From contig NZ_JAKRSA010000003.1 of NCBI RefSeq assembly GCF_022402485.1, positions 1 to 43,217 of the forward strand: DNA of 43,217 nt, given 5' to 3'. Shown one piece after another: positions 4,251 to 40,507 of the stretch; position 1 is the first letter of the stretch; every line of letters starts with the position of its first letter. The notes below the pieces were generated by a model that was not told the DNA's origin, did no database searches, and worked only from the letters and a program-made list of their open reading frames with translations. Origin of the DNA: Phenylobacterium sp. (lineage in GTDB: Bacteria > Pseudomonadota > Alphaproteobacteria > Caulobacterales > Caulobacteraceae). Made by a program: the position numbers and the translations under genes.

Positions 4251-4268
4251 GGTGGAAACCCTGCCCGT

Positions 4269-8299: not shown

Positions 8300-8318
8300 A
8301 ATAATGCGAATCATTATC
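8300..8318 (+). promoter_or_regulatory. Fur-box-like operator
   Basis: This 19-bp stretch matches 16 of 19 positions of the classic Fur consensus (GATAATGATAATCATTATC), differing at positions 1, 8 and 9. It lies 62 nt before the TonB-dependent receptor start. A TTGACC at 8327-8332 with TTAGAC at 8350-8355 (17-bp spacing) is a possible but weak promoter directly downstream. Iron repression of the receptor and the coupled PepSY gene is the natural reading. Confidence 0.8.
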
Positions 8319-8380
8319 ATTTGCTATTGACCCCGCATCCTGGCCTTGTTTAGACGCTCCCTCACAATCTGAGGGATGAC

Positions 8381-11544: not shown

Positions 11545-11553
11545 CGTCCAGAG

Positions 11554-12081: not shown

Positions 12082-12952
12082 CCAGCGGCGCCTCTGTGGG
12101 GGGTTCCGCCAGCGGCACAGCCTCCCGTACCGGTGGCCGGGCAACTTCGGGGGGACTGGCGTCTGCGGCCCCGCGCAGGTCAAGGGTCTCAGCCGGTGCC
12201 TTCGGGGCCTCTGCGGCGGCCTTAAGCTCCGCAAAGGTGATTTCCAGGTCCGCAGCCGACCCCGGAGGATCGATCAGGGCGATGGCGAAGTGGCGCGTTT
12301 CGCCGGGCGGGATCACCGGATCGGCGGCACGGGCGATCTTGGTGGCCACGGCGGCACCGCTCTTGTCCAGCAGGCGAATCTGCAGCGGCGGGGCAGTGAT
12401 CGTGCGATCCTCGACATTGCGAATCATGCCCGAAATGGACAGGGCCGCGTGACCATCCTGAAGGGCGGGCTCGAACGCTACGCCTTCTATGGCCAGGCCA
12501 ACACTGTTCACAGGCAGGCCAACGCTGGCAAAGGCGCCCGCCGCGCTGGGCCACAGGCGCACCACATCGACCCGGAACACGACGGCGATCACCAGCATCA
12601 GGGCCAGGGCCGCCGACATGCCGGCCCAGACGACGCCCGTGGCGGCTGCCTCGCGCAGGCGGCGCGAATCATCAGCCTTGGCCCTGAAGGCGCGAGGCAG
12701 GGCTTCGCCGGCCCGGCCAGTGGGCTCGGCCTCCTGGGCGGGGGCAACATCGAGTGTGGGTTGATCGACCGACACAAGGGGGGTATCGGCGAGCGGAGGG
12801 CTCGCCACCGGGGGTTCCGGTTCGGCCGGCTCCTCGCGGCGGGCCGTCCACCGGTTTCCACAGCTCGCGCACTTCACGACGCGCCCTTGTTCAGGGATCT
12901 TTGCGTCGTCCACGAAATAGCTGGTGGAGCAGTCTGGACAGGTCAGTATCAT
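12074..12952 (-). CDS. Zinc-ribbon membrane protein (MJ0042 finger plus DUF3426-like)
   Basis: A 292-residue protein that starts with a zinc-finger motif, C5-P-D-C8 and C28-A-S-C31, matching the MJ0042 family finger. A Pro/Glu-rich linker follows, then one transmembrane helix (about 104-126) and a C-terminal domain of about 150 residues. That domain carries S-I-S-G-M-I-R-N-V and R-H-F-A-I-A-L segments typical of DUF3426, an Ig-like periplasmic fold. The N-terminus is therefore cytoplasmic and the C-terminal domain periplasmic. In alphaproteobacteria this gene is often next to ftsE; here it is divergent from ftsE, with 56 nt between starts. The role is unknown; a link to division or envelope work is inferred only from the neighbourhood. 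Confidence 0.85.
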   Translation of the reverse strand: MILTCPDCSTSYFVDDAKIPEQGRVVKCASCGNRWTARREEPAEPEPPVASPPLADTPLVSVDQPTLDVAPAQEAEPTGRAGEALPRAFRAKADDSRRLREAAATGVVWAGMSAALALMLVIAVVFRVDVVRLWPSAAGAFASVGLPVNSVGLAIEGVAFEPALQDGHAALSISGMIRNVEDRTITAPPLQIRLLDKSGAAVATKIARAADPVIPPGETRHFAIALIDPPGSAADLEITFAELKAAAEAPKAPAETLDLRGAADASPPEVARPPVREAVPLAEPPTEAPLDE

Positions 12953-13008
12953 GGCCGCTGTATCGGACCCTCCAGCCCACCGTATCGAGGTCGCCGATTC
13001 CGGTCTCC

Positions 13009-13740
13009 ATGTCCAGAAACCTGAACGCCGCAGAGCCGACCGAAGCCTGGGACGCCGTCGTGCGTTTCGACGACGTGTCCATGCGCTACGGGCGCGAACC
13101 TGAGACGCTTAAAGACCTTACCTTCTCCTTGCCTCAAGGGTCTTTCCATTTCGTCACCGGCCCATCGGGTGCGGGCAAGACCTCGCTGCTGAAGCTGATC
13201 TATCTGGCCGCCCAGCCCTCAAAGGGTCTGCTGCACCTTTTTGGCCAGGACGTGGCGAAGGCCCCGGCCGATGTGCGCCCCTTTTTGCGCCGGCGGATCG
13301 GCGTGGTGTTTCAGGAGTTTCGCCTGCTCGATCATTTGAGCGCCTTCGACAACGCAGCGGTGCCGCTGCGAATCGCCGGGCAGAAACCCGACACTTACCG
13401 CCAGGATGTGGCCGAGCTTCTCACCTGGGTTGGCCTGAAGGACAGGATGCACGTCCTGCCCCCGACCCTGGCCGGCGGCGAGAAGCAGCGGCTGGCCATC
13501 GCCCGCGCCGTCGTCGGTCGCCCCGACATCCTGCTCGCCGATGAACCCACGGGGAATGTGGATCACGAGATGGGCTTGCGTATCCTGCGCCTGTTCCTGG
13601 AACTCAACCGGCTGGGCACCACAGTTCTGATCGCAACCCACGACCAGGACCTGGTGGCCCGTTCGGGTATGCCTGTTCTGCATCTGGAGGACGGGCGACT
13701 GACCCATATGGGACCGTTTTCACCCGGAGGAAGGTCATGA
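13009..13740 (+). CDS. ftsE: Cell-division ATP-binding protein FtsE
   Basis: A 243-residue ABC ATPase that pairs with FtsX to control peptidoglycan hydrolysis at the division site. Walker A is G-P-S-G-A-G-K-T (51-58), the Q-loop is V-V-F-Q-E-F-R, the signature is L-A-G-G-E-K-Q-R (154-161), Walker B is I-L-L-A-D-E-P (174-180) and the switch histidine is in I-A-T-H-D (H211). The signature reads L-A-G-G-E-K instead of the usual L-S-G-G-E-Q: a Ser-to-Ala and a Gln-to-Lys change. The frame extends upstream, but ATG at 13009 begins the conserved domain and keeps clear of the divergent zinc-ribbon gene. It overlaps ftsX by 4 nt (ATGA). Confidence 0.95.
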   Translation: MSRNLNAAEPTEAWDAVVRFDDVSMRYGREPETLKDLTFSLPQGSFHFVTGPSGAGKTSLLKLIYLAAQPSKGLLHLFGQDVAKAPADVRPFLRRRIGVVFQEFRLLDHLSAFDNAAVPLRIAGQKPDTYRQDVAELLTWVGLKDRMHVLPPTLAGGEKQRLAIARAVVGRPDILLADEPTGNVDHEMGLRILRLFLELNRLGTTVLIATHDQDLVARSGMPVLHLEDGRLTHMGPFSPGGRS

Positions 13741-14645
13741 GTCGCCGTCGGGGAAGCGGGCCCCTCGACGTAGATCGCTGGCGCCCCGCGCCCTTTCTGC
13801 CAGTGCGCGACACCCGAGACAGCGCCTTGGTGTTTGTGGTGGCCGTGCTCTGCTTTCTGGCCTGCCTGACCGCGCTTGGGGTGATCGCCTCTGACCGGGC
13901 GGCCCGGGGATGGTCCCAGCAATTGAGCGGCGAAATGACTGTGATCGTTCGTCCCAAGGCCAATGAAACCCCTGACTCCGCCGCCGCCCGTACCGCCGAG
14001 ACCTTGGCCGGGGTAGCGGGCGTCGCAGAAGCCAGAGCCCTGGAGCGGGAAAAGGCCGAGGCCCTGATCACCCCCTGGCTGGGGGACGCCGTCGATCTCG
14101 CCGACCTGCCCGTGCCGCGCCTGGTGGCGGTGGTCCTTGACCGGGACGCGCCGGCAACGGCCGAGAGTCTCAGGCGGGCCTTGCAGGCCAGGGGCCTGGA
14201 CGCCGTGGTGGACGACCACACCACCTGGCTGGCCGACATTCAGCGGGGCGCGGCCATCGCCCGTTGGGTGGGACTGGGTGTCTTTCTGTTGATCGCCTCG
14301 GCAGCAGCGGCCGTGGTCGCCTTTGCGACCCGCGCAGGCCTCGCCGCCCGGCGCGAGGTGGTGGAACTGTTACACCTGACAGGCGCCGAAGATGTCTTCA
14401 TCGCCCGCCTGTTCCAGGTCCGGTTCGCTCAGATGGCTGCCGGTGCCGGGCTGGTGGGTGCCGGCACAGCCGCCGCCCTTGGTGCAGCTATGCGGTTGGG
14501 CGGCGGTGGCCAAGGCCTGACCCCGGTTCTGCCGGTCGCTTGGAGTGATCTGCTGGCTGTTCTACCCTGTCCCCTGGCGGCGGCTCTGGTGGCGGCAGTG
14601 GCGGCGCGGATGACCGCCGCCAGCCTGATTCGCGAGCTGTCCTGA
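13737..14645 (+). CDS. ftsX: Cell-division permease-like protein FtsX
   Basis: A 302-residue integral membrane protein with the FtsX layout: a cytoplasmic N-terminus, helix 1 (about 30-51), a periplasmic domain of about 125 residues (M-T-V-I-V-R-P...) that contacts a hydrolase activator, then three more helices (about 180-200, 225-250, 270-292). The N-terminal cytoplasmic extension is proline/arginine-rich. With FtsE it forms the FtsEX complex. The start overlaps ftsE as ATGA. The downstream ydcF-like gene begins 11 nt after its stop, so this is one operon of envelope functions. FtsX is poorly conserved in sequence, and the call rests on topology and the ftsE partner. Confidence 0.93.
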   Translation: MSRRRGSGPLDVDRWRPAPFLPVRDTRDSALVFVVAVLCFLACLTALGVIASDRAARGWSQQLSGEMTVIVRPKANETPDSAAARTAETLAGVAGVAEARALEREKAEALITPWLGDAVDLADLPVPRLVAVVLDRDAPATAESLRRALQARGLDAVVDDHTTWLADIQRGAAIARWVGLGVFLLIASAAAAVVAFATRAGLAARREVVELLHLTGAEDVFIARLFQVRFAQMAAGAGLVGAGTAAALGAAMRLGGGGQGLTPVLPVAWSDLLAVLPCPLAAALVAAVAARMTAASLIRELS

Positions 14646-14656
14646 ACGGGGGCCCC

Positions 14657-15283
14657 ATGAAAACGCTCGCCCTGATCCTAGTCGCCGCCCTCATCTGGGC
14701 CGCTGGCCTGCTGGCCTTCGCCACCCGGGTGGAGCACTCGACTCCAGCTACGAATCCCCAGGTGGCCGATGGAATCGTCGCCCTGACGGGGGCCGGCTCC
14801 AGCGAGCGGATCGCGGCTGGCATCAAGCTGCTGGAAGCTGGCAAGGCCGACCGGATGCTGGTCTCCGGGGTCAATCGAGAGGTTAGCCGGGCCGATATCC
14901 GGCAGTTGAGCCGAGCGGCCCAGCGGCTCTATGACTGCTGCGTCGATCTGGGCTTCGAAGCGGCCGATACCTTTGGCAACGCTCAGGAGACGGCGGGCTG
15001 GGTGAGGGCCCGACGCTATGACAGCCTGATTGTGGTCACCGCCGACTACCATATGCCTCGCGCGATGCTGGAGCTCGGCTCAGCCCTGCCTGGCATCACC
15101 CTGCAGGCTCATCCCGTGGCCACGCCGGGTCTCGACGCTCGCCGCTGGTGGCGGACCCCCAGCGGCACCCGGCTTATGGTGACCGAGTATTCCAAGTATC
15201 TGGCCATTCTCGGCCGGGAACTGATCCTTGGCCTGGGGCCCAAGGACGAGGCACCGTCCGAGCCTGCGCCGCAGGGCCGTTGA
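14657..15283 (+). CDS. YdcF/DUF218-family envelope protein
   Basis: A 208-residue protein with one N-terminal membrane helix (about 4-23) and a DUF218 (YdcF/SanA-like) domain in the periplasm. Recognisable segments are G-I-V-A-L-T-G, L-L-E-A-G-K-A-D-R-M-L-V-S-G, N-A-Q-E-T-A-G-W and V-V-T-A-D-Y-H-M-P-R-A, the usual conserved blocks of this fold. Family members are linked to envelope barrier function, but the reaction is unsettled. The position between ftsX and plsC (11 nt after ftsX, 73 nt before plsC) is conserved in several alphaproteobacteria and supports an envelope role. ATG at 14657 follows a G-rich stretch. Confidence 0.88.
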   Translation: MKTLALILVAALIWAAGLLAFATRVEHSTPATNPQVADGIVALTGAGSSERIAAGIKLLEAGKADRMLVSGVNREVSRADIRQLSRAAQRLYDCCVDLGFEAADTFGNAQETAGWVRARRYDSLIVVTADYHMPRAMLELGSALPGITLQAHPVATPGLDARRWWRTPSGTRLMVTEYSKYLAILGRELILGLGPKDEAPSEPAPQGR

Positions 15284-15356
15284 GCTTTCAATCGCAAGCG
15301 ACGAACCTGGGACCAAAGAAAATGCAAGCCAGGACCCTACAAGAAAGAGGTTCGCC

Positions 15357-16061
15357 GTGACGGCCGTGCGCTCCCTGCTCTTTGTGGCGATCTTCTATCT
15401 GTGGTCGGCCAGCGTGGCGATCCTGATCACCCCCCTGCTCTTGGGACCCAGAGTCTGGATTCTGCGGGCGCTGGATTTCTGGAGCCGCGGCGTCATCGCC
15501 CTGCTCGGTATCTGCGACATCCGGATCGAAGTCCGTGGGCTGGAGCATGTGCCCAAGGGCAAGGCCCTGGTGGCCCCAAAGCATCAGTGCATGTTCGATG
15601 TGTTCGCCCAGTTCGCGTGGCTGCCAGACTCCTGCTTCGTCCTGAAAAAGGAGCTGATGTGGATCCCGTTCTTCGGCTGGTACGCTCAGAAGGCGCGCAT
15701 GATCGTCGTCGACCGCGAGGCCCAGGCTGCAGCCTTGAAGAAGCTGGTGCGCGATACCGAAGACCGCCTGAAGGAAGACCGGCAGCTGGTGATCTTTCCC
15801 GAAGGCACCCGGGGGGTGCCGGGTGTCCGCGGAAGCTACAAGCCCGGCATCGCGGCCCTATATCGGGAGCTGAACCTGCCGGTGCACCCCGTGGCCACCA
15901 ATTCCGGGGTTCACTGGCCCAAGCATGGCTTCCTGCGGAAACCGGGCGTCATCGTCTTTGAATATCTGGAGCCCATTCCGCCCGGTCTCAAGCGCGCCGA
16001 GTTCATGCGCACCCTGGAAGAGCGTATCGAGACAGCCTCCATGAAGCTGCTCGAGCTTTAG
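15357..16061 (+). CDS. plsC: 1-acyl-sn-glycerol-3-phosphate acyltransferase
   Basis: A 234-residue membrane acyltransferase that makes phosphatidic acid from lysophosphatidic acid. It shows acyltransferase motif I H76-x4-D81 (H-Q-C-M-F-D), F-P-E-G-T-R at 147-152 (motif III), and G-S-Y-K-P-G-I just after, with hydrophobic segments near residues 7-30 and 42-55. GTG at 15357 is chosen because AGAGG at 15346-15350 lies 6 nt upstream. The frame is open to 15228, but that part overlaps the ydcF-like gene and lacks conservation. It closes the ftsE-ftsX-ydcF-plsC run and ends 4 nt into the convergent ChaC gene. Confidence 0.93.
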   Translation: MTAVRSLLFVAIFYLWSASVAILITPLLLGPRVWILRALDFWSRGVIALLGICDIRIEVRGLEHVPKGKALVAPKHQCMFDVFAQFAWLPDSCFVLKKELMWIPFFGWYAQKARMIVVDREAQAAALKKLVRDTEDRLKEDRQLVIFPEGTRGVPGVRGSYKPGIAALYRELNLPVHPVATNSGVHWPKHGFLRKPGVIVFEYLEPIPPGLKRAEFMRTLEERIETASMKLLEL

Positions 16062-16606
16062 GTCGGCGAGCCCAGGGCCTGACGCTCCACCCGAACCAAC
16101 AGGTCCTCCATGGCGCGATCACGCACGCCAGCCTCACGCAGATGGCCCACAAGATCGCGGAGATAGTCCTCATTAGGACCTGACAGACCCACCGCACCGG
16201 TGATCAGCTCGGCCTGTCGTTCCAGGGACAGGGCACCCGCCCACTGTGGATGGCTGACATCGGAGAGAAAAACCAAGCTCTCCACCCGCCGGCCGTCGGT
16301 CAGGCGCACGGTCCGCCTGGCCTCCACATAGGTCTCGGTGGGCTGCTCGCGCTCCATGAGATAGGCATAGACCTCCGGCCAGTCGGCCTCGGCCACGAGG
16401 TAGGCTGTCCCGCGCACGGCGCCGCCGGGCGCGAGGCCCAGCACCAGGCCCGGCCGCTCATAGGTGCCCCGGTGATGGACCGAATAGATGCAGAAGGCCC
16501 GGCGGCGCCCGTGTAGAATGGCGCTCGAACGCTCGACATAGCTGAAACCCGGCCGCCACATGAGCGACCCATAGCCAAACACCCAAGCCCCGTTGCCGCC
16601 CGCCAT
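16058..16606 (-). CDS. chaC: ChaC-like gamma-glutamylcyclotransferase
   Basis: With ATG at 16606 the protein has 182-183 residues and begins close to the substrate-binding motif V-F-G-Y-G-S-L-M-W (9-17), as in short ChaC2-type enzymes. The family's Y-L-x-x-R-E segment is present as Y-L-M-E-R-E-Q followed by T-E-T-Y, carrying the likely catalytic glutamate. Family members release 5-oxoproline from glutathione, so this is probably a glutathione-specific cyclotransferase. An earlier ATG at 16645 would add 13 residues and overlap the divergent DUF2125 start. The gene is convergent with plsC (4-nt overlap) and divergent from the DUF2125 gene. Confidence 0.88.
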   Translation of the reverse strand: MAGGNGAWVFGYGSLMWRPGFSYVERSSAILHGRRRAFCIYSVHHRGTYERPGLVLGLAPGGAVRGTAYLVAEADWPEVYAYLMEREQPTETYVEARRTVRLTDGRRVESLVFLSDVSHPQWAGALSLERQAELITGAVGLSGPNEDYLRDLVGHLREAGVRDRAMEDLLVRVERQALGSPT

Positions 16607-16643
16607 GCCCGATCCGTCAGAAGAAAAGTCTGCAAAGCCGTCC

Positions 16644-17678
16644 ATGTCTGTGCCCGATACGACGCCCGCTCGCAAACCCCGCCGGCTAGGCCTGATCCTG
16701 CCCTTCGCCTTCCTGTTCCTGGCGATGATCGTCTGGAGCGGCTTCTGGTTCTGGACCCGCATCCAGACCGGCGAGCGGATGGACGCCGCCGCCGAGACCC
16801 TTCGCAGCGCCGGCTATGAGGTCAGCTGGGAAACCCGCAGCATCGGTGGCTATCCCTTCCGCCTGAACGTCACCCTCACCGATGCGGTGATCCGGGAGCC
16901 GTCAGGCTGGGCGCTCGCCACCCCACGCCTGAAGTCGGAAGCCTACATGCATGGGCTCGGCCGCTGGATTTTCGCCACGCCCGACGGCCTGACGTTCACA
17001 AGGCCACAGTCTGGATCAGTGCAGGTGACCGGCCGGCTGATCCGCGCCAGCCTGGGGGATGTGAACCGCAAGCCCCCACGTTTCGACTTCGAGGGTGCCG
17101 ATCTGACCTTCACCCCTACGCCGGGGGCTCAGCCGTTTGCCCTGTCTAAAGCCGAGAAGGTGGCCTTCCACCTGCGACCGGGACCTGAGGATCAGGGGGC
17201 CATGTTCCTGGAGGTGTCGAAGGGCGAGGCGCAGATGTCGGGCCTGTTCGCCCGCATCGCCCAGGACGGCAACATTGATATCAAGTGGGACACCCTGCTC
17301 ACCGAAATGAGCGCCTTTGAGGGAGACGACTGGCCCTCGGCGGTACGCAATTGGAGCCGGGCCGGCGGCATGGCCCAGGTCCGCGAGGCTGGGCTCACAG
17401 CGGGCGAAGCCGTGATCGGCGTCAATCGCGGCCAGCTGTTCGTCGGGCCTGACGGACGGCTGAGGGGAACCCTTGATGTGACCTTGCGCCAGGCGCCCGA
17501 AGCCCTGGAGGCCCTGGGTGCCGGCGGAGTATTGCCCCCGGAAACCGCTGACACCGCCGCCGCCGTCACCGCAGCCCGACAGGGTGCCGACAATGTGGCC
17601 CAGGCCGCCATCACCTTCCAGGCTGGCCAGACGACCCTGGGGCCGGTGGCGATCGGTCCGGCCCCCCGCGTCTACTGA
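16644..17678 (+). CDS. DUF2125 membrane-anchored protein
   Basis: About 344 residues. A basic N-terminus (K-P-R-R) is followed by a membrane anchor (about 16-36: L-I-L-P-F-A-F-L-F-L-A-M...) and a large periplasmic domain containing G-G-Y-P-F-R-L, a hallmark of DUF2125. The repeated amphipathic beta pattern of the rest resembles lipid-transfer or AsmA-like beta folds, but no function is established. ATG at 16605 is an in-frame alternative adding 13 residues; both ATGs sit in CATG sequences that also read as starts on the other strand. The gene stands just before the aromatic amino-acid cluster, with no obvious link. Confidence 0.82.
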   Translation: MSVPDTTPARKPRRLGLILPFAFLFLAMIVWSGFWFWTRIQTGERMDAAAETLRSAGYEVSWETRSIGGYPFRLNVTLTDAVIREPSGWALATPRLKSEAYMHGLGRWIFATPDGLTFTRPQSGSVQVTGRLIRASLGDVNRKPPRFDFEGADLTFTPTPGAQPFALSKAEKVAFHLRPGPEDQGAMFLEVSKGEAQMSGLFARIAQDGNIDIKWDTLLTEMSAFEGDDWPSAVRNWSRAGGMAQVREAGLTAGEAVIGVNRGQLFVGPDGRLRGTLDVTLRQAPEALEALGAGGVLPPETADTAAAVTAARQGADNVAQAAITFQAGQTTLGPVAIGPAPRVY

Positions 17679-17704
17679 GGCTGATGGTATCGTCTGCAAC
17701 TTTC

Positions 17705-17740
17705 TTGCGCGGGGCGGCCCTATTGCGCCTCCCCGCGCAA
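17705..17740 (+). promoter_or_regulatory. Perfect 10-bp inverted repeat before the aromatic gene cluster
   Basis: TTGCGCGGGG at 17705-17714 pairs perfectly with CCCCGCGCAA at 17731-17740 across a 16-nt spacer. There is no T-run after it, so it is a poor terminator for the DUF2125 gene. It lies 35 nt before the chorismate mutase-like start. It could be a leader hairpin, an mRNA-stabilising stem or an operator. I cannot tell which. Confidence 0.5.
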
Positions 17741-17775
17741 TGACTTAGGTCGCGGCATTGGTTCCGGGAATAGAA

Positions 17776-18612
17776 ATGGCCGACCCCCAGCAAGCTGCGC
17801 CCCCGCCCTCGCCGATCACAGCGGCCCCGGTGCCCTTGCCGCTGGAGGCTGTCCGCGCGCGGATCGACGAGATCGATGCGGGCCTGCTGGCCCTGCTGGA
17901 TGAGCGCACAGCCCTGGGCAAGCAGGTGGCCGCCGCCAAGGCCGCCGCCGGCCAGGCCGACCGCTTTGGCCTGCGCCCGGGCCGGGAGACAGAGATCCTG
18001 CGCCGGCTGCTGGCCATGCCGCGCACGGGGGCCAGCGACGCCCTGGTGATCCGAATCTGGCGCGAGCTGATGGGCCAGAGCCTGGCTTTGCAGGGCCCCT
18101 TCAATCTCACGGTCTGGGGGGGTCCGACGCCTGCCAGGGCGCTGGAGCTTGCCCGCCTGCGGTTCGGTGCCGCGCCGGCCTTGAGGATGGCCGCCAAGCC
18201 GGAAGATACCCTCGCCGCCGCCAAGCTGAAGGGCGGGGTGGGCGTGGCCATGCTGACAGGCGAAAGCGCCTGGTGGGGCCGCCTGCTGGCCGAGCCGAAG
18301 CTGAAAGTCTTTGCCGTCCTGCCCTGCCTCAACGCCTGGGGACCGCCCTCGGCACTGGCCTTCGCCGAGGTGGATGTGGAGCCCACCGGCGCCGATGTCA
18401 CCCTTTGGGTCACGGACGCCCCCGGCCCTGTCGCCCGCACGACAGAGGTCCTCAGCCGCGATGGGGTCGCCGCCGAACTGCTCAGCGAGGCTGGCGGACT
18501 GCGGCTCTTCACCCTCGCGGGCTACTATCAGGCCGATGATGAGCGCCTGGCCCGGGCACCCGGGCGCCTCAGCGGCGTCATCGGGGCTGCACCGGAACCG
18601 TTCGACGTGTAA
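17776..18612 (+). CDS. AroQ-type chorismate mutase with C-terminal extension
   Basis: About 278 residues. The first 95 after a short lead form an AroQ chorismate mutase helix bundle: V-R-A-R-I-D-E-I-D, L-L-A-L-L-D-E-R, K-Q-V-A-A-A-K, R-E-x-E-I-L-R-R-L and I-W-R-E-L-M carry the usual Arg, Lys and Glu/Gln ligands. The C-terminal 180 residues resemble the periplasmic-binding-like fold of prephenate dehydratases in pattern (V-W-G-G-P-T, A-M-L-T-G-E, L-F-T-L-A-G-Y-Y) but lack a convincing T-R-F catalytic motif, so dehydratase activity is doubtful. ATG at 17776 is chosen over TTG at 17758. The hisC and tyrA neighbours place it in tyrosine/phenylalanine synthesis, supplying prephenate. Confidence 0.8.
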   Translation: MADPQQAAPPPSPITAAPVPLPLEAVRARIDEIDAGLLALLDERTALGKQVAAAKAAAGQADRFGLRPGRETEILRRLLAMPRTGASDALVIRIWRELMGQSLALQGPFNLTVWGGPTPARALELARLRFGAAPALRMAAKPEDTLAAAKLKGGVGVAMLTGESAWWGRLLAEPKLKVFAVLPCLNAWGPPSALAFAEVDVEPTGADVTLWVTDAPGPVARTTEVLSRDGVAAELLSEAGGLRLFTLAGYYQADDERLARAPGRLSGVIGAAPEPFDV

Positions 18613-18649
18613 GAGCCAGGGCCTGATACGTCCAAACCCAGGCCCGCCC

Positions 18650-19771
18650 ATGTCCCAGTCCCCCGATCGCGCCGCCGCCGACCGTCCGGTTCCCAAGCCG
18701 GGCATCCTCGACATATCGGCTTACGTTCCCGGCAAGGCCAAGGTCGACGGGATCGCCCATCCGCTGAAACTATCGGCCAATGAGAACATCCTGGGCTGCA
18801 GCCCGCAGGCCAAGGCCGCCTATGTGGCGGCGATCGATCAGCTGCACATCTATCCCGACAGCCGCGCCACCCCCCTGCGCCAGGCTATCGCCGCAGAGTT
18901 CCGCCTGGAGCCCGAGCAACTGATCTTCGGCTGCGGCTCCGACGAGATCTTCCACATGCTCTGCCAGGTCTATCTTGAGCCCGGCGACAACATCGTTCAG
19001 GGCCAGTACGCCTTCGGGGCCTACGCCATCGGAGCACGGGCCTGTCAGGCGGAGGTGCTCAGCGCGCCCGAGCCTGACTACCGGGTCGAGGTCGATGGCC
19101 TGCTGGAGCTGGTCAATGACCGCACGCGGCTGGTGTTCATCGCCAACCCCGGCAACCCCACCGGCACCTATATCGGCGGCGAGGAAATCCGTCGCCTGCA
19201 TGCGGCCCTGCCCAAGAGCGTTGTCCTGGTGCTCGACGGTGCCTATGCCGAGTTCGTCGATGATCCGGCGTTTGAGGACGGGACTGACCTCGCCCGGACC
19301 AGCGACAATGTCATTGTCACCCGCACCTTCTCCAAGCTGCACGGCCTGGCGACCCTGCGGGTGGGCTGGGCCTATGGACCGGCCGAGATGATCAGCGCGC
19401 TCGACCGCATCCGCCAGCCGTTCAACACCTCCATTCCTGGGCAGCTCGCTGCGGTGGAGGCCCTGGCCGACAAGGACTTCCAGAAGGCCTCCCTGGACCT
19501 GCTGGCACAATGGCGGCCCTGGCTTGCCCAGCAGCTGGGGGGGCTTGGCCTCTCGCCGGTGCCCAGCGCCACCAACTTTGTCCTGGTGGGCTTCCCGACC
19601 AGCGGACCCAAGACCGCCCAGGCCGCTGAGGCCTATCTGGCCAGTCGCGGCCTGATCGTCCGCGGTGTCGGCGGCTATGGCCTGCCCCACCACCTGCGTA
19701 TGACCATCGGGCTCGAGGCGCACAATCGCGCCGTGGTCGAGGCGCTCGCCGACTTCATGCAGGCGCACTGA
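18650..19771 (+). CDS. hisC: Histidinol-phosphate/aromatic aminotransferase
   Basis: A 373-residue fold-type I PLP aminotransferase of the HisC group. Landmarks are L-S-A-N-E-N, the phosphate-binding G-C-G-S-D-E, the N-P-G-N-P-T-G motif that holds the substrate-side Asn, the D-x-A-Y-A-E-F segment and the PLP lysine in T-F-S-K-L-H-G-L. R-M-T-I-G near the C-terminus supplies the carboxylate-binding Arg. HisC enzymes often also transaminate prephenate or hydroxyphenylpyruvate. Being fused to tyrA by a 1-nt overlap and following a chorismate mutase gene, this copy may serve tyrosine/phenylalanine synthesis as well as, or instead of, histidine. The frame is open upstream; ATG at 18650 begins the conserved region. 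Confidence 0.92.
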   Translation: MSQSPDRAAADRPVPKPGILDISAYVPGKAKVDGIAHPLKLSANENILGCSPQAKAAYVAAIDQLHIYPDSRATPLRQAIAAEFRLEPEQLIFGCGSDEIFHMLCQVYLEPGDNIVQGQYAFGAYAIGARACQAEVLSAPEPDYRVEVDGLLELVNDRTRLVFIANPGNPTGTYIGGEEIRRLHAALPKSVVLVLDGAYAEFVDDPAFEDGTDLARTSDNVIVTRTFSKLHGLATLRVGWAYGPAEMISALDRIRQPFNTSIPGQLAAVEALADKDFQKASLDLLAQWRPWLAQQLGGLGLSPVPSATNFVLVGFPTSGPKTAQAAEAYLASRGLIVRGVGGYGLPHHLRMTIGLEAHNRAVVEALADFMQAH

Positions 19772-34244: not shown

Positions 34245-35468
34245 ATGGCCGACTTCGGCAGCGCAGACCTCGACACCTTCCGGTCGGAAGTCCGCACCTG
34301 GCTGGCGGCAAACTATCCGGCAGAGCTGCGCGATCCGTCGGTCGAGGTCGATCCTGAGGCCATGTGGGGGGGACGGGTTTTCCAGGACTCCTCCGATCCC
34401 CAGATCGCCTGGATGCGAAAGGTCGGCGAAAAGGGTTGGACCGCCCCGACCTGGCCAGCCCAATACGGCGGCGGTGGCTTGAGCCCGGCGCAGGCGCGCA
34501 TCCTTGATCAGGAGATCAACGCCGGGCGCTATCGGACGCCCCTGGCCTCCTTCGGGGTCTGGATGCTGGGTCCGGTGCTGCTGGAATACGCCAATGAAGA
34601 GCAAAAGCAGGCCCACCTGCCGAAGATCATCAAGGGCGAGATCCGCTGGTGTCAGGGGTATTCGGAGCCCGGCGCGGGCTCCGACCTGGCGGGCCTGCAA
34701 ACCCGTTGCGAAGACAAGGGCGACCACTGGCTGATCAATGGCCAGAAGGTCTGGACCTCCTATGCCGACAAGGCTGACTGGTGCTTCTGCCTGGTGCGGA
34801 CGGACACGAGCAAGAAGCATGAGGGGGTGTCCTTCGTGCTCATCGACATGCGCACCCCCGGCGTCGAGACCCGGCCGATCCAGCTGATCTCCGGTGAAAG
34901 CCCCTTCTGCGAGACCTTTTTCACCGACGTGAAGGTCCCCAAGGGCAATCTGGTGGGCAAGGTCAATGGCGGCTGGGACATCGCCAAGCGCCTGCTGCAG
35001 TACGAGCGCCAGAACATTTCAGGCGGCTTTGGCGGCGGCGGCGGGGCTGGCGGCACAGCCGGCGATCTGGCGCATGTGGCCAAGGGCTATCATGGCCTCG
35101 ACGCCAGCGGTGCCCTGGCTGATACTGATCTGCGCAGCCGCATCACCCAAAACAAGATGAACATGCAGTGCCTCGGCCTGACCATCAGCCGCACGGCAGC
35201 TGAAGCCAAGGCCAGCAACGGCCCCAGCGCCGCCGTCTCCATCATCAAGTACGCAGCGGCGAGCTTCGCCCAGGACCGCTCTGAATTGATGATCGAGGCC
35301 ATGGGCCATCAGGGGCTGGGCTGGGACGGCGAAGACTTTACGGCGGGTGAAAAGCTGGCCACCCGGGGTTGGCTGCGGTCGAAGGGCAATTCCATCGAAG
35401 GCGGCACCAGCGAAGTGAATTTGAACGTCATCTCCAAGCGCGTTCTGGGGCTGCCCGATCCAAAGTAG
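34245..35468 (+). CDS. Acyl-CoA dehydrogenase, catalytic-type paralogue 1
   Basis: A 407-residue ACAD-fold flavoprotein subunit. The FAD/substrate motif S-E-P-G-A-G-S-D is at 140-147, W-T-S at 170-172, and L-L-Q-Y-E-R places E254 at the position of the catalytic base of isovaleryl-CoA dehydrogenase. At the MCAD catalytic position the sequence is E-G-G-T-S, with Gly in place of the catalytic Glu. The R-x-x-F-G-x-x-I-x-x-F-Q motif that binds the FAD of the neighbouring subunit is missing. A Gly-rich insert (G-G-F-G-G-G-G-G-A-G-G) follows E254. ATG at 34245 has GGGAG 6 nt upstream; the longer frame from 34164 is less likely. It is the first of five ACAD genes on this strand. Confidence 0.92.
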   Translation: MADFGSADLDTFRSEVRTWLAANYPAELRDPSVEVDPEAMWGGRVFQDSSDPQIAWMRKVGEKGWTAPTWPAQYGGGGLSPAQARILDQEINAGRYRTPLASFGVWMLGPVLLEYANEEQKQAHLPKIIKGEIRWCQGYSEPGAGSDLAGLQTRCEDKGDHWLINGQKVWTSYADKADWCFCLVRTDTSKKHEGVSFVLIDMRTPGVETRPIQLISGESPFCETFFTDVKVPKGNLVGKVNGGWDIAKRLLQYERQNISGGFGGGGGAGGTAGDLAHVAKGYHGLDASGALADTDLRSRITQNKMNMQCLGLTISRTAAEAKASNGPSAAVSIIKYAAASFAQDRSELMIEAMGHQGLGWDGEDFTAGEKLATRGWLRSKGNSIEGGTSEVNLNVISKRVLGLPDPK

Positions 35469-35482
35469 GCGATTGCGCAGAG

Positions 35483-35508
35483 CCGCCGGTCGCATTTTCG
35501 GCCGGCGG
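35483..35508 (+). promoter_or_regulatory. Intercistronic hairpin between ACAD 1 and ACAD 2
   Basis: A 10-bp stem (CCGCCGGTCG at 35483-35492 with CGGCCGGCGG at 35499-35508, one G-U pair) closes a 6-nt loop. No T-run follows, so it is more likely an mRNA-stabilising or attenuating element than a terminator. Confidence 0.5.
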
Positions 35509-35543
35509 ACACCCCGGACGACATTTTGCAAAGGCGGATTTCC

Positions 35544-36752
35544 ATGGCCGATTTTGGCGGCGATCTCGATACCTTCCGCAGCGAGGCTAAGACCTGGCTG
35601 AACGCAAACTTCCCTGCCGCCCTGAAGGGCGATATTGCCGCTCAGACCGCAGCGGCGGCCGGCGGCAAAGAGGATCCTGCGGCCCGCCAGTGGCGTGAGG
35701 CCATGGGCACCAAGGGCTGGGGTGTGCCGACCTGGCCCAAGGAATACGGCGGTGGTGGTCTGTCCCGGGCCGAGGCCCGGGTTCTGGCTGAGGAAATGGC
35801 GGCCATCGGTGCCCGCAATCCCATCGGCGGCATGGGCGTGATGATGTTTGGTCCCACCCTCCTGGAGTACGGCACCGAGGCGCTGAAGCAGCAGCACATG
35901 CCCGGGATCGTCACCGGCTCGGTGCGGTGGTGCCAGGGCTATTCGGAGCCAGGCTCCGGCTCTGACCTGGCCTCTCTACAGACCCGGGCCGAGGACAAGG
36001 GCGACCATTGGTTGGTCAATGGCCAGAAGATCTGGACGTCGGGTGCCAATCTCGCCGACTGGTGCTTCTGCCTGGTGCGCACCGACACCTCGAAGAAGCA
36101 TGAGGGCATCTCCTTCCTGCTGATCGACATGCGCAGCCCTGGTGTCGATGTCCGGCCGATCCTGCTGATCAATGGCGGTTCGCCCTTCTGCGAGACCTTC
36201 TTCACGGACGTGAAGGTGCCCAAGGACCAGCTGTTTGGCCCGCTGAATGGCGGCTGGACGGTGGCCAAACGGCTGTTGCAGTTTGAACGGGACAACATCT
36301 CGGCGGGTCTCGGGGGCGGCAACATTGGCGCGGCGGCCGCTGTGATGAGCGTCGAGGATGCAGCGAAGAAATATGTCGGCCTTGATGAGACCGGCCGCAT
36401 TGCCGACCACGACCTGCGCCGCCGGATTATCGAACACCGAATGGAGGCCCGCGCCTTCCAGCTCACGGTCCGCCGCGCCGCTGATGAGACCAAGTCCAAT
36501 GCCGGGCCCAGCGCCGCCACCTCGATCATGAAATATGCCGGCGCCAAGGTCGCTCAGGATCGTAACGAGCTGCTGATCGAGGCCTTCGGCCATCAGGGCC
36601 TCGGCTGGGACGGCGAAGCCTATGACGAAAGTGAACTCGCCCTGGTCCGCGCCTGGCTCCGGTCCAAGGGCAATTCCATCGAGGGCGGAACCTCGGAAAT
36701 CAATTTGAACGTGGTCTCCAAGCGGGTGCTCGGCCTGCCGGACCCGAAGTAA
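35544..36752 (+). CDS. Acyl-CoA dehydrogenase, catalytic-type paralogue 2
   Basis: A 402-residue paralogue of the preceding gene. It has S-E-P-G-S-G-S-D (134-141), W-T-S (164-166) and the IVD-type base E248 in L-L-Q-F-E-R. The C-terminus reads S-I-E-G-G-T-S-E-I-N-L-N-V-V-S-K-R-V-L-G-L-P, almost identical to paralogue 1, so these two form one sub-pair. ATG at 35544 lies 75 nt after the previous stop, and its ribosome site is weak (AAGGCGGA). A 10-bp hairpin occupies the gap. Like its neighbour it lacks the R-x-x-F-G motif. Confidence 0.92.
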   Translation: MADFGGDLDTFRSEAKTWLNANFPAALKGDIAAQTAAAAGGKEDPAARQWREAMGTKGWGVPTWPKEYGGGGLSRAEARVLAEEMAAIGARNPIGGMGVMMFGPTLLEYGTEALKQQHMPGIVTGSVRWCQGYSEPGSGSDLASLQTRAEDKGDHWLVNGQKIWTSGANLADWCFCLVRTDTSKKHEGISFLLIDMRSPGVDVRPILLINGGSPFCETFFTDVKVPKDQLFGPLNGGWTVAKRLLQFERDNISAGLGGGNIGAAAAVMSVEDAAKKYVGLDETGRIADHDLRRRIIEHRMEARAFQLTVRRAADETKSNAGPSAATSIMKYAGAKVAQDRNELLIEAFGHQGLGWDGEAYDESELALVRAWLRSKGNSIEGGTSEINLNVVSKRVLGLPDPK

Positions 36753-36784
36753 GCGCGCGACTCCCCGAGCGATCAACTTCGTGC

Positions 36785-36798
36785 TATAGTGCACTATA
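36785..36798. promoter_or_regulatory. Perfect 14-bp palindrome, operator-like, before ACAD 3
   Basis: TATAGTGCACTATA is self-complementary over its whole length and sits in an AT-rich leader 27 nt before the ACAD 3 ribosome binding site region. TATAAC at 36795-36800 overlaps it and could be a -10 element. An AT-rich perfect palindrome in so GC-rich a genome is a good candidate operator for a dimeric repressor of GntR, TetR or MarR type; the regulator is not in this window. Confidence 0.6.
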
Positions 36799-36825
36799 AC
36801 ATAATGAATTTATGGGAGAATAATT

Positions 36826-38034
36826 ATGGCTGACTTTGGTGGCGCTGATCTGGACGGCTTCCGGACCCAGGCGCGCGAGTGGCTGAAAGCCAATTTCCCC
36901 ACCTCGCTGGCTCATGATACTGAAGCCCAGACCCGGGCCATGGGCGGCGGCAGCGAACTGACCGGCGACATGGCGATCTGGCGCGACCGGATGGGTGAAA
37001 AGGGTTGGGGCGTTCCCACCTGGCCTGCCCAGTACGGCGGCGGCGGCCTTTCGCCTCAGGAAGCCCGGGTGCTGGCTCAGGAAATGGCCGCCATCGGCGC
37101 CTGGAACCCCATCGGTGGCATGGGCGTGGGCATGTTCGGCCCGACCCTGCTGGAATACGGGACCGAGGACCAGAAGAAGAAGTACATCCCCGACATCGCC
37201 ACCGCCAAGGTGCGCTGGTGCCAGGGCTTCTCTGAGCCGGGCGCGGGCTCTGACCTGGCGGCCCTGTCGACCCGGGCTGAGGACAAGGGTGATCACTGGC
37301 TGGTCAATGGTCAGAAGATCTGGACCTCCGGCGGCCAATGGGCGGACATGATTTTCTGCCTGGTGCGGACCGACACCACCAAGAAGCACGAAGGCATCTC
37401 CTTCGTGGTCTTCTCCATGCATCAGCCTGGGGTCGAGGTGCGTCCGATCCGCCTGATCGCGGGCTCCTCGCCCTTCTGCGAAACCTTCTTCACCGACGTG
37501 AAAGTGCCGAAGGAAAACCTGATCGGCCCCCTGAACGGCGGCTGGACGGTGGCCAAGCGCCTCCTGCAGCACGAGCGCAGTGGCATGGGCGGCCGGGCTG
37601 GCGAAGGCGGCAAGCGGGACTCCCTGGGGGTCATCGCCAAGAAGTATGTGGGCGAGGATGAGCAGGGTCGCCTGGCCGATCTCGACCTGCGCACCCGCAT
37701 TGTCATGAACGATATGGACCTCAAGGCCCTGCAGCAGACGGTCAAACGCGCCGCCCTGGAGGCCAAGGGCAATTCCGGGCCCTCGGCAACCACCTCGATC
37801 ATGAAGAACGCCAATATGAAGGTGGCGCAGGACCGGGCCGAACTGACCCTCGAGTTCATGGGTCACCAGGGCCTTGGCTGGGAAGGCGATTCCTTCACCG
37901 AGGAAGAGCTGACCGCTGTCCGCAGCTGGCTGTCTGGCAAGGCCGGCTCGATTTACGGCGGGTCCAATGAGGTGCAGAACAACATCATTTCCAAGCGCAT
38001 CCTCGGCTTGCCCGACGCTGCGCCGGCGAAATGA
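36826..38034 (+). CDS. Acyl-CoA dehydrogenase, catalytic-type paralogue 3
   Basis: A 402-residue paralogue with S-E-P-G-A-G-S-D (136-143), W-T-S (166-168) and E250 in L-L-Q-H-E-R. The MCAD position is Gly, in Y-G-G-S-N-E-V-Q-N-N-I-I-S-K-R-I-L-G-L-P. That tail is shared with paralogue 4 and differs from paralogues 1 and 2, so the array consists of two sub-pairs. The start at 36826 has GGGAG 7 nt upstream in an AT-rich context. It follows the 14-bp palindrome, so it may begin a separately regulated transcript. No R-x-x-F-G-x-x-I motif is present. Confidence 0.93.
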   Translation: MADFGGADLDGFRTQAREWLKANFPTSLAHDTEAQTRAMGGGSELTGDMAIWRDRMGEKGWGVPTWPAQYGGGGLSPQEARVLAQEMAAIGAWNPIGGMGVGMFGPTLLEYGTEDQKKKYIPDIATAKVRWCQGFSEPGAGSDLAALSTRAEDKGDHWLVNGQKIWTSGGQWADMIFCLVRTDTTKKHEGISFVVFSMHQPGVEVRPIRLIAGSSPFCETFFTDVKVPKENLIGPLNGGWTVAKRLLQHERSGMGGRAGEGGKRDSLGVIAKKYVGEDEQGRLADLDLRTRIVMNDMDLKALQQTVKRAALEAKGNSGPSATTSIMKNANMKVAQDRAELTLEFMGHQGLGWEGDSFTEEELTAVRSWLSGKAGSIYGGSNEVQNNIISKRILGLPDAAPAK

Positions 38035-38066
38035 ATTTAAAAAACTGATTTTCAAGGAGAATTTTA

Positions 38067-39263
38067 ATGGCAGATTTTGGCGGCTCTGATCTGGACGCCT
38101 TCCGCACGGAAGCCCGCGACTGGATCGAAGCCAACTTCCCCAAGTCCCTGAAGGGCAAGGGAAGCATGATGATGCGCGAAGAGCGCACTGAGCCGACCCC
38201 GGACATGGAATCCTGGCGCAAGGCTATGGGCGAAAAGGGTTGGGGCGTCCCCACCTGGCCGGCCCAGTACGGCGGCGGCGGCCTGACGCCGGCCCACGGC
38301 CGGATCATCCAGCAGGAGCTGGGCCGGGTTGGGGCCTATAACCCCATCGCCGGCATGGGCGTGATGATGTTCGGCCCGACCCTGCTGGAGTACGGCACTG
38401 AAGCGCAGAAGCAACAGCACATCCCGCCGATCGTGAAGGGTGAGCTGCAGTGGTGCCAGGGCTTCTCCGAGCCGGGTGCCGGCTCTGACCTGGCCTCCCT
38501 GCAGACCCGCGCCGAGGACAAGGGCGACCATTACATCGTCAATGGCCAGAAGGTGTGGACCTCGGGCGCTCAGTGGGCCCAGTGGTGCTTCTGCCTGGTG
38601 CGCACCGACACCACCAAGAAGCATGAAGGCATTTCCTTCGTGCTGTTCTCCATGGACACCCCTGGCGTCGAAGTGCGTCCGATCCCGCTGATCGCCGGCA
38701 ACTCGCCGTTCTGCGAAACCTTCCTCACCGACGTTCGCGTCGAAAAGGATCAGGTCGTGGGTCCGGTGAACGGCGGCTGGACGGTGGCCAAGCGTCTCCT
38801 GCAGCACGAGCGTAGCGGCCTGTCGGGCGCTGGCGGCGGTGCGGGCCTGGGTGGCCGGTCCCTGGTCAAGCTCGCCAAGGACTATGTGGGCACCGATGAA
38901 GCCGGTCGTCTGTCGGACACCGATCTGCGTACCCGCGTGATCATGAACGAAATTGACGGTCGTGCTTTCCAGCTGACCGCCATGCGCGCCATGGTCGAAT
39001 CCAAGGCCAATTCCGGGCCTTCGGCAGCCACCTCGATCATGAAGAATGCGGGCACCCGCTGGATGCAGGATCGCGCTGAGCTGACCATCGAACTGATGGG
39101 TCATCAGGGACTGGGCTGGGAAGGCGACGACTTCACCGCCGAAGAGCTGGGCGCCGTGCGCTCCTGGCTGGGCGGTAAGGCGACGACCATCTATGGCGGT
39201 TCGCAGGAGGTGCAGAACAACATCATCTCCAAGCGCATCCTCGGCCTGCCCGACCCGAAATAA
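38067..39263 (+). CDS. Acyl-CoA dehydrogenase, catalytic-type paralogue 4
   Basis: A 398-residue paralogue with S-E-P-G-A-G-S-D (134-141), W-T-S (164-166) and E248 in L-L-Q-H-E-R. Its C-terminus, T-I-Y-G-G-S-Q-E-V-Q-N-N-I-I-S-K-R-I-L-G, pairs it with paralogue 3. The start at 38067 has a strong AAGGAG (38054-38059) at 7-nt spacing, the best in the array, and lies 32 nt after the previous stop. The Gly-rich insert after the catalytic position is S-G-A-G-G-G-A-G-L-G-G. It has no adenine-site R-x-x-F-G motif. Confidence 0.93.
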   Translation: MADFGGSDLDAFRTEARDWIEANFPKSLKGKGSMMMREERTEPTPDMESWRKAMGEKGWGVPTWPAQYGGGGLTPAHGRIIQQELGRVGAYNPIAGMGVMMFGPTLLEYGTEAQKQQHIPPIVKGELQWCQGFSEPGAGSDLASLQTRAEDKGDHYIVNGQKVWTSGAQWAQWCFCLVRTDTTKKHEGISFVLFSMDTPGVEVRPIPLIAGNSPFCETFLTDVRVEKDQVVGPVNGGWTVAKRLLQHERSGLSGAGGGAGLGGRSLVKLAKDYVGTDEAGRLSDTDLRTRVIMNEIDGRAFQLTAMRAMVESKANSGPSAATSIMKNAGTRWMQDRAELTIELMGHQGLGWEGDDFTAEELGAVRSWLGGKATTIYGGSQEVQNNIISKRILGLPDPK

Positions 39264-39297
39264 GAACTCATTAGAATTACATAGGGATTACAATAAG

Positions 39298-40434
39298 ATG
39301 GCCGTTCTCAACGAAGAACAATCTATGCTTCGCGACGCCGCGAAGAGCTGGGTGCAGGAAAAGTCTCCCGTCACCGCCTTCCGCAAGATGCGCGATAGCG
39401 GGGTCGAGCTTGGCTACGACGCCGACGCCTGGAACGAAATGGCCGAAATGGGCTGGGCTGGGGTGATCATCCCCGAGGAATACGGTGGTTCGGACTTCGG
39501 TTATCTCTCCATGGGCCTGATCCTGGAAGAAACCGGCCGCACCCTGACCGCCTCTCCGCTGCTGGCCTCGGCCCTGGCTTCGGCGTCGGCCCTGGTGCTG
39601 GGCGGCTCCGACGCTCAGAAGTCGGAATGGCTGCCCAAGATCGCGGCGGGTGAAGTGGTCGGCGCCCTGGCGGTCGACGAAGGGGCGCATCACGCGCCGG
39701 AAAAGGTCGCTCTGAAGGCTGAGAAGTCCGGTTCGGGCTACAAGCTCACCGGTGCCAAGTCCTTCGTGCTGGAAGGCCTGGCGGCGAACCTGCTGGTTGT
39801 CTCGGCCCGCACCTCGGGCAAGCCGGGCGACACCGACGGGATCACCCTGTTCCTGGTCGCCGGCGACGCCAAGGGCGTGAGCCGTAAGCGTCTGCACCTG
39901 GCCGACAGCCGCGGTGCGGCCAATATCACCTTCGACGGTGTCGAAGTTGGTGCTGACGCCGTCCTGGGCGAAGTCGACAAGGGCTACGCCCTGCTGGAAA
40001 AGACCCTGGACCGCGCCCGCGCTGGCCTCTGCGCCGAAATGCTCGGCTCGGCCGTGCAGGCCTTTGAAGTGACCCTGGACTACCTCAAGGTCCGGGTGCA
40101 GTTCGGCCAGGTCATCGGATCCTTCCAGGCCCTGCAGCATCGCGCGGCCAAGATGTTCACTGATCTGGAACTGGCCCGCTCGGCGGTGGAAGCCGCCCTT
40201 CAGGCCATTGACTCCAACACCCCGGACGTTCCGGAACTGGTCAGCCTCGCCAAGGCCAAGATGGGCGACGTGTTCCATCTGGTGTCCAACGAGATGGTCC
40301 AGATGCATGGCGGCATCGGCATGACCGACGCCCACGACTCGGGCTTCTACATGAAGCGCGCCCGTGCGGCTGAGGCGGCCTTTGGCAACCAGGGCTATCA
40401 CCGCGACCGTTACGCCCGCCTTCAGGGCTACTAA
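39298..40434 (+). CDS. Acyl-CoA dehydrogenase-like complementary subunit
   Basis: A 378-residue ACAD-fold protein, distinct from the four paralogues. It lacks the S-E-P-G-A-G-S-D motif (A-V-D-E-G-A-H-H in its place). It has Ala240 at the IVD catalytic position (L-D-R-A-R-A) and no Glu at the MCAD position. It does carry the adenine-site motif R-V-Q-F-G-Q-V-I-G-S-F-Q (266-277), missing from the other four. In heteromeric ACADs such as ChsE4-ChsE5 one subunit is catalytic and the other helps bind FAD, which fits this pattern. ATG at 39298 lies 34 nt after paralogue 4; a longer frame starts inside that gene. A strong terminator follows, so it ends the transcript. Confidence 0.9.
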   Translation: MAVLNEEQSMLRDAAKSWVQEKSPVTAFRKMRDSGVELGYDADAWNEMAEMGWAGVIIPEEYGGSDFGYLSMGLILEETGRTLTASPLLASALASASALVLGGSDAQKSEWLPKIAAGEVVGALAVDEGAHHAPEKVALKAEKSGSGYKLTGAKSFVLEGLAANLLVVSARTSGKPGDTDGITLFLVAGDAKGVSRKRLHLADSRGAANITFDGVEVGADAVLGEVDKGYALLEKTLDRARAGLCAEMLGSAVQAFEVTLDYLKVRVQFGQVIGSFQALQHRAAKMFTDLELARSAVEAALQAIDSNTPDVPELVSLAKAKMGDVFHLVSNEMVQMHGGIGMTDAHDSGFYMKRARAAEAAFGNQGYHRDRYARLQGY

Positions 40435-40477
40435 GCCGCAGTCCCCGGCCTCGTCCGGGACAGCGTTGCTTGACAAG

Positions 40478-40507
40478 AACCCCCGGCCGCATGGTCGGGG
40501 GTTTTTT
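40478..40507 (+). terminator. Rho-independent terminator of the ACAD operon
   Basis: An 11-bp stem (AACCCCCGGCC at 40478-40488 with GGTCGGGGGTT at 40493-40503, one G-U pair) closes a GCAT loop and runs into T-tract 40502-40507. It is the clearest intrinsic terminator in the window. Confidence 0.92.

Follow-up and report, generated by a model that had tools for sequence, protein, structure and literature searches.

Introduction

The division of an acyl-coenzyme A (CoA) dehydrogenase into two unlike chains is already known from the heteromeric acyl-CoA dehydrogenases (ACADs) (PMC11153573, PMC8399759). In enzymes of the ChsE4–ChsE5 kind, the alpha chain is stated to hold the flavin ring, the catalytic Glu, and the substrate, and the beta chain the adenosine diphosphate (ADP)-ribose of flavin adenine dinucleotide (FAD) (PMC11153573). 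Known heteromeric relatives are reported to require both chains (PMC8399759), and reviews, in the parts that bear on them, present heteromeric ACADs as one alpha plus one beta, each pair carrying out one step. The closest matches of the genes treated here are ChsE4–ChsE5 (FadE26–FadE27, PDB 4x28) and Tcur3483–Tcur3481 (6wy8, 6wy9), alpha2beta2 steroid side-chain dehydrogenases. Here we analyze an array of five ACAD genes in Phenylobacterium sp. (GCF_022402485.1, contig NZ_JAKRSA010000003.1), in which four alphas (a1–a4) precede a single beta (b5), and argue that this beta is probably common to several alphas. The window, meaning the whole stretch of DNA analyzed, is one entire 43,217-base contig from a genome of 33 contigs and 3.08 Mb; b5 is 96% identical to its nearest named relatives, from Phenylobacterium.

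Division of Motifs between Alpha and Beta

The array comprises five consecutive open reading frames (ORFs) on the + strand, each with an ATG start and a stop codon (table 1), and Pfam recognizes three acyl-CoA dehydrogenase domains in each product. The alphas are 59–71% identical among themselves and 19–21% identical to b5. An earlier note made from the letters alone had read the array as four catalytic subunits plus one complementary subunit, which agrees with the division of motifs described below and with the PDB matches of the alpha profile. Each of a1–a4 has the S-E-P-G-(A/S)-G-S-D motif and a Glu at the catalytic position of isovaleryl-CoA dehydrogenase (IVD), at exactly the residue numbers given in that note, and lacks the R-x-x-F-G-x-x-I-x-x-F-Q motif that b5 carries at residues 266–277 (R-V-Q-F-G-Q-V-I-G-S-F-Q). 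Conversely, b5 has Ala at the IVD catalytic position in a residue-by-residue alignment to human IVD, and no S-E-P motif. It also lacks a Glu at the position used by medium-chain acyl-CoA dehydrogenase, where betas show Phe or Tyr (53 betas, the eight commonest variants listed).

The same division runs through the 80 loci sampled, taken from the best 80 of 383 relatives. Their 256 alpha-type tblastn matches, in 78 loci, were reduced to 241 from 71 loci by removing 15 fragments or split matches, and with the four window alphas and two more from the same genome gave 247 alphas, all distinct; the beta set comprised 80 plus b5 (81, of which 80 are distinct). Which individual residues face the flavin ring and which the ADP-ribose end of FAD is our assumption throughout. 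The Ser, Glu, Pro, Gly, Ser, and Asp of S-E-P-x-x-G-S-D, the W-T motif, and the catalytic Glu are present in 247/247 alphas. In the 81 betas, the catalytic-Glu column holds Ala (68) or Val (13) and never Glu, and in the S-E-P-x-x-G-S-D columns every beta has the first Ser replaced by Asp, the Pro aligned to a gap, the Gly replaced by His or Arg, and the second Ser replaced by His; the Asp of G-S-D is missing from 80 and present in one. All betas have R266, F269, I273, Q277, Q335, G338, G339, and G341 (b5 numbering). The full R-x-x-F-G ADP-site motif, searched for anywhere in the chain, occurs in 80/81 betas and 0/247 alphas, and Q-x-x-G-G-x-G (Q335-M-H-G-G-I-G in b5) in 81/81 and 0/247. The alphas are gapped around the ADP-site region, so that single columns there are less certain than the absence of the motif: no alpha matches b5 at R266, F269, I273, or Q335 (the last column is Glu in all 247), ten have Gln at the Q277 column, by chance or descent, and seven have Gly at G339. 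Of the six residues R266, F269, I273, Q277, Q335, and G339, one is retained in 17 alphas and none in the other 230; G270, G338, and G341 are present in nearly all alphas and are therefore uninformative for the split.

Since the pattern recurs in 247 alphas and 81 betas, the split is not a matter of chance. No chain combines the catalytic and the complete FAD motifs, the ADP-site motif being absent from every alpha and the IVD-position Glu from every beta. As in the heteromeric class, two dissimilar chains of ACAD fold are encoded by neighboring genes, with the catalytic Glu in alpha only, the flavin-ring motifs in alpha, and the ADP-ribose motifs in beta. The pattern also holds, in the main, for the remaining heteromeric alphas and betas that the genome encodes. 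All four ordinary ACADs examined in this genome carry the R, F, G, and Q of the ADP site (position 273 being Ile or Leu), and only two of these four have Glu at the IVD position.

Comparison with Described Heteromeric Dehydrogenases

ChsE4–ChsE5, the comparison drawn in the earlier note, proved to be the right one. The three best PDB matches of the alpha profile are 4x28_A (237 bits) and the Tcur3483 chains 6wy9_A and 6wy8_B (226 and 224 bits), the next match scoring 163, and the top four Foldseek matches of the a4 model are alpha chains of the ChsE4–ChsE5 and Tcur3483–Tcur3481 complexes. We take 4x28_A as ChsE4 because its residues 89 and 91 are Pro, as PMC11153573 states for ChsE4. These complexes consist of one alpha and one beta and act in a steroid pathway, whereas four to five alphas accompany each beta here (4:1 in this array, 6:1 in the genome), and Tcur3483 has Gly at residue 363 where a1–a4 have Glu or Tyr.

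Other two-chain systems are more distant. The best NCBIfam models are those of pimeloyl-CoA dehydrogenase, with a1–a4 scoring 274–293 bits against PimC (large subunit, TIGR03204) and b5 scoring 245 against PimD (small subunit, TIGR03203); these scores are far under the curated cut-offs (623.85 and 652.7), and pimeloyl-CoA is therefore not assigned as substrate. ThnJ and ThnK of tetralin degradation have been likened to the same large and small subunits (PMC6563040). Against the model of IpdE2 (NF050027), from the IpdE1–IpdE2 enzyme of steroid ring catabolism, b5 scores 149.5 bits, far below the cut-off of 450, and the fadE31-32-33 genes are given as neighbors in PMC5380842. The a4 model has chain A of Fic32–Fic33 (8hk0, a two-protein complex by its PDB title alone) as its third-ranked match by Z (27.7, 4.7 Å, 364 residues aligned); a search of open-licence papers found none on this complex.

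Excess of Alphas over Betas

The genome has 26 matches to PF00441, and the 21 ORFs examined around those lying outside the window include two array-type alphas, C3:146251-147420 and C3:150217-151395 (hereafter C3-146k and C3-151k). These off-array alphas are 65% and 59% identical to a4 and lie 2.8 kb apart, with no further PF00441 match within 39 kb. The genome total is six array-type alphas (four in the array, two on contig C3) for one b5-type beta. A seventh, distant alpha (G000:C6:162922-163413), 37% identical to a3, has the catalytic Glu and the S-E-P motif and no other PF00441 match near it.

Relatives were counted in 119 genomes of the family, where matches to a4 or b5 were taken at E <= 1e-100, and in 192 genomes of the class; per-genome numbers are minimum values, and ratios and overlaps were counted by reading the match lists. 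Within the genus, at least 114 alphas and 20 betas were found in 19 matching genomes, and one sampled genome has neither. The single-contig genome G069 repeats the arrangement of ours, with four array alphas, two alphas elsewhere, and one beta. Outside the genus, 66 family genomes have a beta: the two chains are equally numerous in 50 of them, and alphas exceed betas in 16 (genera g18 and g20, and one of g2), and of 21 other class genomes with both chains 19 have equal numbers, the others being G121 (5:1) and G128 (1:2). Alpha and beta occur together in 85 of the 119 family genomes, with alpha only in four, beta only in none, and neither in 30; the corresponding numbers for the class are 22, zero, one, and 169. 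Among 20 one-alpha stretches, 18 have one alpha near one beta, and the remaining two (L123, L124) have a beta without an alpha in the stretch and one alpha elsewhere in each genome. In the single-contig genome G083, a second b5-type beta and an adjoining alpha (C1:1788856-1791234) were observed besides an array at 3.72 Mb.

Array Order and History

Across 62 loci in which 6.5 kb or more precede the beta, the number of adjacent upstream alphas is none (3 loci), one (3), two (7), three (8), four (27), or five (14), where one five-alpha locus (L031) is a four-alpha locus with a split a4 and one zero locus (L079) has an alpha about 1 kb away. The gene order a1, a2, a3 or a3b, (a5), a4, beta fits the 53 loci with at least three full-length alphas, one of which has an unclassified middle alpha. 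In L031 (Phenylobacterium aquaticum KACC 18306), the a4 orthologue at 8690-9879 appears as two overlapping matches in different frames, which resembles a frameshift and could be a sequencing error. Inserts separate the alphas in four loci (L058, L060, L062, and L042, by several kb); those of L058 and L060 contain ORFs of 938 and 974 residues with no Pfam match at 1e-8, and that of L058 a TIR-domain gene as well. In another locus, an a1-type alpha is separated from the next b5-type beta by genes for an HpaB-type hydroxylase and a TPR protein (L106:8187-11596).

Trees were built by a quick method under a simpler and a mixture model, with support from the Shimodaira–Hasegawa-like approximate likelihood ratio test only (starred values are given as reported). 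In them a1, a2, a3, and a4 form separate clades, and the single alpha of Caulobacter is of a1 type. The one-alpha Caulobacter loci L078 and L079 have the same pair of genes upstream, one MprF-like and one with Sel1 repeats. A single b5-type beta has an a1-type alpha as its neighbor in Caulobacter, G195, and G270, and an alpha of some other type in G308, G128, and G193. In one or both trees, the off-array alphas group with array or beta-adjoining alphas, all on long branches: C3-151k groups with the a5 alphas found inside five-alpha arrays of other species (99*, mixture-model tree) and shares the Ala of that group at the Tcur3483 G363 position, having been placed in the a5 group for that comparison; C3-146k groups with an array alpha of L034 (support 88–89, both trees); and an off-array alpha of G121 groups with the G193 alpha adjoining a beta (97*). 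A separate four-alpha array occurs in G121, which belongs to another family of the class; two alphas of this array group with those of L068 and fall outside the Phenylobacterium a3 and a4 clades, so that alpha arrays are likely to have grown more than once.

Selection and Type-Specific Positions

Pairwise ratios of nonsynonymous to synonymous substitution rates (dN/dS) between the window genes and their orthologues in four loci are 0.05–0.29 for a1–a4 and 0.06–0.21 for b5. The column of Tcur3483 G363, the site differing between 6wy8 and 6wy9 ("G363A variant") and numbered here from a counted 20-residue offset, varies by alpha type: Glu in a1 (59/59) and a2 (44/45), Tyr in a3 (26/27), Tyr or Phe in a4 (65/65), and Ala in a5 (17/17). 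To judge by a paper title in a reference list, Gly 363 of Tcur3483 reportedly affects flavin position and side-chain choice. The position may mark where substrate differences could be sought and does not demonstrate them. Of 398 alignment columns, 20 are fixed within and different between the a1–a4 types, and eight of these lie inside five active-site windows (p = 0.003; 0.041 against conserved columns only, with the active-site windows picked after the list had been seen), so a concentration of type-determining columns near the active site is suggestive only.

Genomic Context

The earlier statement that no thiolase, hydratase, or CoA ligase is nearby holds for the ten flanking ORFs scanned (window positions 1–19770 lay outside the scan); the two off-array alphas, however, have as neighbors two CoA ligases, a nitronate-monooxygenase-like enzyme, a CoA transferase, a thiolase, a hydratase, and a TetR regulator. 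No steroid gene was found among the 15 window proteins scanned. In other genomes, the alpha/beta pair of G308 has a short-chain dehydrogenase and a thiolase-like protein as flanking neighbors, and that of G195 adjoins a thiolase and a 3-hydroxy-3-methylglutaryl-CoA-synthase-like protein with a ChsH2-type domain; the contexts of our off-array alphas, G308, and G195 have no common substrate theme. Those large ORFs adjoining other alpha/beta loci that Pfam identified are unrelated (M16 peptidase, histidine kinase, gyrase, and one TonB receptor). The two PF01012 matches in the genome represent one electron transfer flavoprotein (ETF) pair, a candidate electron acceptor.

Other Features of the Locus

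The intergenic gaps from a1 to b5 are, in order, 75, 73, 32, and 34 bases. A site resembling the extended -10-like element TGCTATAGT (table 1) occurs, as judged by eye, in 14 of the 18 orthologous a2–a3 gaps listed, and none of the gaps listed contains the perfect 14-bp palindrome TATAGTGCACTATA found 5' of a3 (window 36785-36798). The scan that yielded the hairpin 3' of b5 found eight terminator-like sites, where chance alone would give 5.3. Two tRNA predictions within the window were rejected as spurious, having no Rfam support at gathering scores and lying inside long ORFs. Close relatives of the array genes are named "alkylation response protein AidB-like acyl-CoA dehydrogenase" in one source, which hides their two-subunit nature.

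Table 1. Features of the alpha/beta array, in window coordinates
Feature	Position	Strand	Remarks
a1, alpha (catalytic) subunit	34245..35468	+	407 aa; S-E-P at 140; catalytic Glu 254; Glu 385 at Tcur3483 G363 position
a2, alpha subunit	35544..36752	+	402 aa; S-E-P at 134; catalytic Glu 248; Glu 380 at G363 position
a3, alpha subunit	36826..38034	+	402 aa; S-E-P at 136; catalytic Glu 250; Tyr 377 at G363 position
a4, alpha subunit adjoining beta	38067..39263	+	398 aa; S-E-P at 134; catalytic Glu 248; Tyr 376 at G363 position; fold predicted
b5, beta (complementary) subunit	39298..40434	+	378 aa; without catalytic Glu, without S-E-P; fold predicted
b5 R266-x-x-F-G-x-x-I-x-x-F-Q277	40093..40128	+	ADP-ribose side of predicted shared FAD site
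b5 Q335-M-H-G-G-I-G341	40300..40320	+	second FAD motif, betas only
TGCTATAGT, 5' of a3	36782..36790	+	extended -10-like site; possible internal promoter for a3-a4-b5
Intrinsic-terminator-like hairpin and T run, 3' of b5	40475..40506	+	14 pairs

Discussion

The best and most economical reading of the array is that one b5 is common to several exchangeable alphas, and we consider this probable on the strength of the sequence comparisons. It draws on the division of motifs, the excess of alphas over betas and their co-occurrence, the fixed gene order, the grouping of the off-array alpha C3-151k in one of two trees, and the low dN/dS values, as well as on the several alpha types that each stand beside a single b5-type beta elsewhere and on the one-alpha Caulobacter loci with the same upstream neighbors. 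The proposal of the earlier note, one shared partner for four catalytic subunits, is supported in particular by the 6:1 ratio in the genome, the 114:20 ratio in the genus, the gene order, and the grouping of an off-array alpha with alphas inside arrays.

Several observations weigh against a shared beta. The genome has three other heteromeric betas, on C6, C9, and C31, which could serve the off-array alphas, and in two stretches of other genomes (L022:10001-11134 and L023:10001-11134) a b5-type beta has no alpha match in the stretch. The genomes of these two stretches have a second, alpha-associated b5-type beta (L050 and L025). The a4 model, folded like that of b5 as a single chain only, is middling (predicted local distance difference test 79.7, predicted template modeling score 0.72), and the profile and model of b5 are nearer to ordinary dehydrogenases than to ChsE5 or Tcur3481 (rank 14). 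The simpler tree leaves C3-151k unresolved and apart from the a5 alphas, and C3-151k stands on a long branch in both trees. Slower evolution of the beta, tried as a sign of a shared hub, was rejected. Relative to a1, beta divergence is 0.63 across 22 array pairs and 1.54 across 11 pairs from one-alpha loci; relative to MprF, used as a clock, it is 0.48 (21 pairs) versus 1.09 (6 pairs), and that of a1 is 0.88 versus 0.70 (p = 0.065). However, an unrelated 1:1 dehydrogenase pair at C31, used as control and matched in 37/37 genomes (truncated G096 was unused, and G006 was dropped for lack of a1), shifts alike between the two genera, from 1.17 in arrays (9 pairs) to 2.27 in one-alpha loci (5 pairs; p = 0.001), and b5 relative to the control beta gives 0.90 versus 1.44 (p = 0.11). 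Because the control moves the same way, we ascribe most of the signal to lineage and do not count it as support.

The three additional betas also bear on the possibility that b5 pairs with one alpha, either its neighbor a4 or the most widespread a1, and that the others use different betas or are redundant and heading for loss, as the a4 split between frames in L031 might suggest. Each of these betas adjoins an alpha of its own, 34–40% identical to the array alphas, however, and dN/dS is low in all four array alphas, their order is kept in 53 loci, and alphas of several types are found elsewhere as the sole companion of a b5-type beta, which makes exclusive pairing quite unlikely. An increase in dosage, in which near-equivalent alphas raise the amount of one enzyme and leave its substrate range as it is, would fit tandem copies of 59–71% identity in which 139 of the 398 columns are conserved and identical in the a1–a4 types (85% threshold). 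We regard this as unlikely given that the types stay distinct across genomes and differ at fixed positions such as the G363 column, and that more catalytic chains without more beta would be a poor way to raise the amount. Least probable, to the point that we give it very little credence, is that each alpha forms a self-sufficient homotetramer with b5 a degenerate bystander. The alphas do have the complete catalytic motif set, and the fold of b5 is close to that of ordinary enzymes, but no alpha carries the ADP-site motif whose R, F, G, and Q all four ordinary enzymes retain, b5 has a low dN/dS and co-occurs with alpha, and known relatives are described as needing both chains (PMC8399759).

In each predicted alpha–beta unit, the flavin ring, the acyl-CoA, and the catalytic Glu would lie in alpha, and the ADP-ribose end of the same FAD would be bound by R266, F269, I273, and Q277 and by Q335-x-x-G-G-x-G of b5. 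The reverse pocket, made of the flavin side of beta and the ADP side of alpha, lacks its residues, so that two FADs per tetramer are expected. Exchanging the alpha would then alter the active site and leave the FAD-completing chassis unchanged, with electrons passing to the single ETF pair of the genome, and each alpha probably has its own substrate. We infer this binding, the stoichiometry, the differing substrates, and the electron flow from the comparisons above. On balance we lean toward a model in which b5 is a common chassis into which six alphas, four in cis and two in trans beside CoA ligases, plug by turns, perhaps forming mixed alpha–alpha'–beta2 tetramers; substrate range would have been widened by duplicating the catalytic half alone, and similar arrays would have arisen independently in one or more further families of the class.

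What is known is the two-chain split, and what is new is the ratio of several alphas to one beta. A search of open-licence papers found no ACAD with one beta and many alphas, which is a weak negative. If one beta serves many alphas, an enzyme with a split active site would have been made modular, new substrate ranges arising by duplication of one half. Annotation would change as well, as an alpha without an adjoining beta need not be dead. The array, with four alphas and one beta in one gene row, and its one-alpha Caulobacter relatives with the same upstream neighbors would provide a test system for such modularity.

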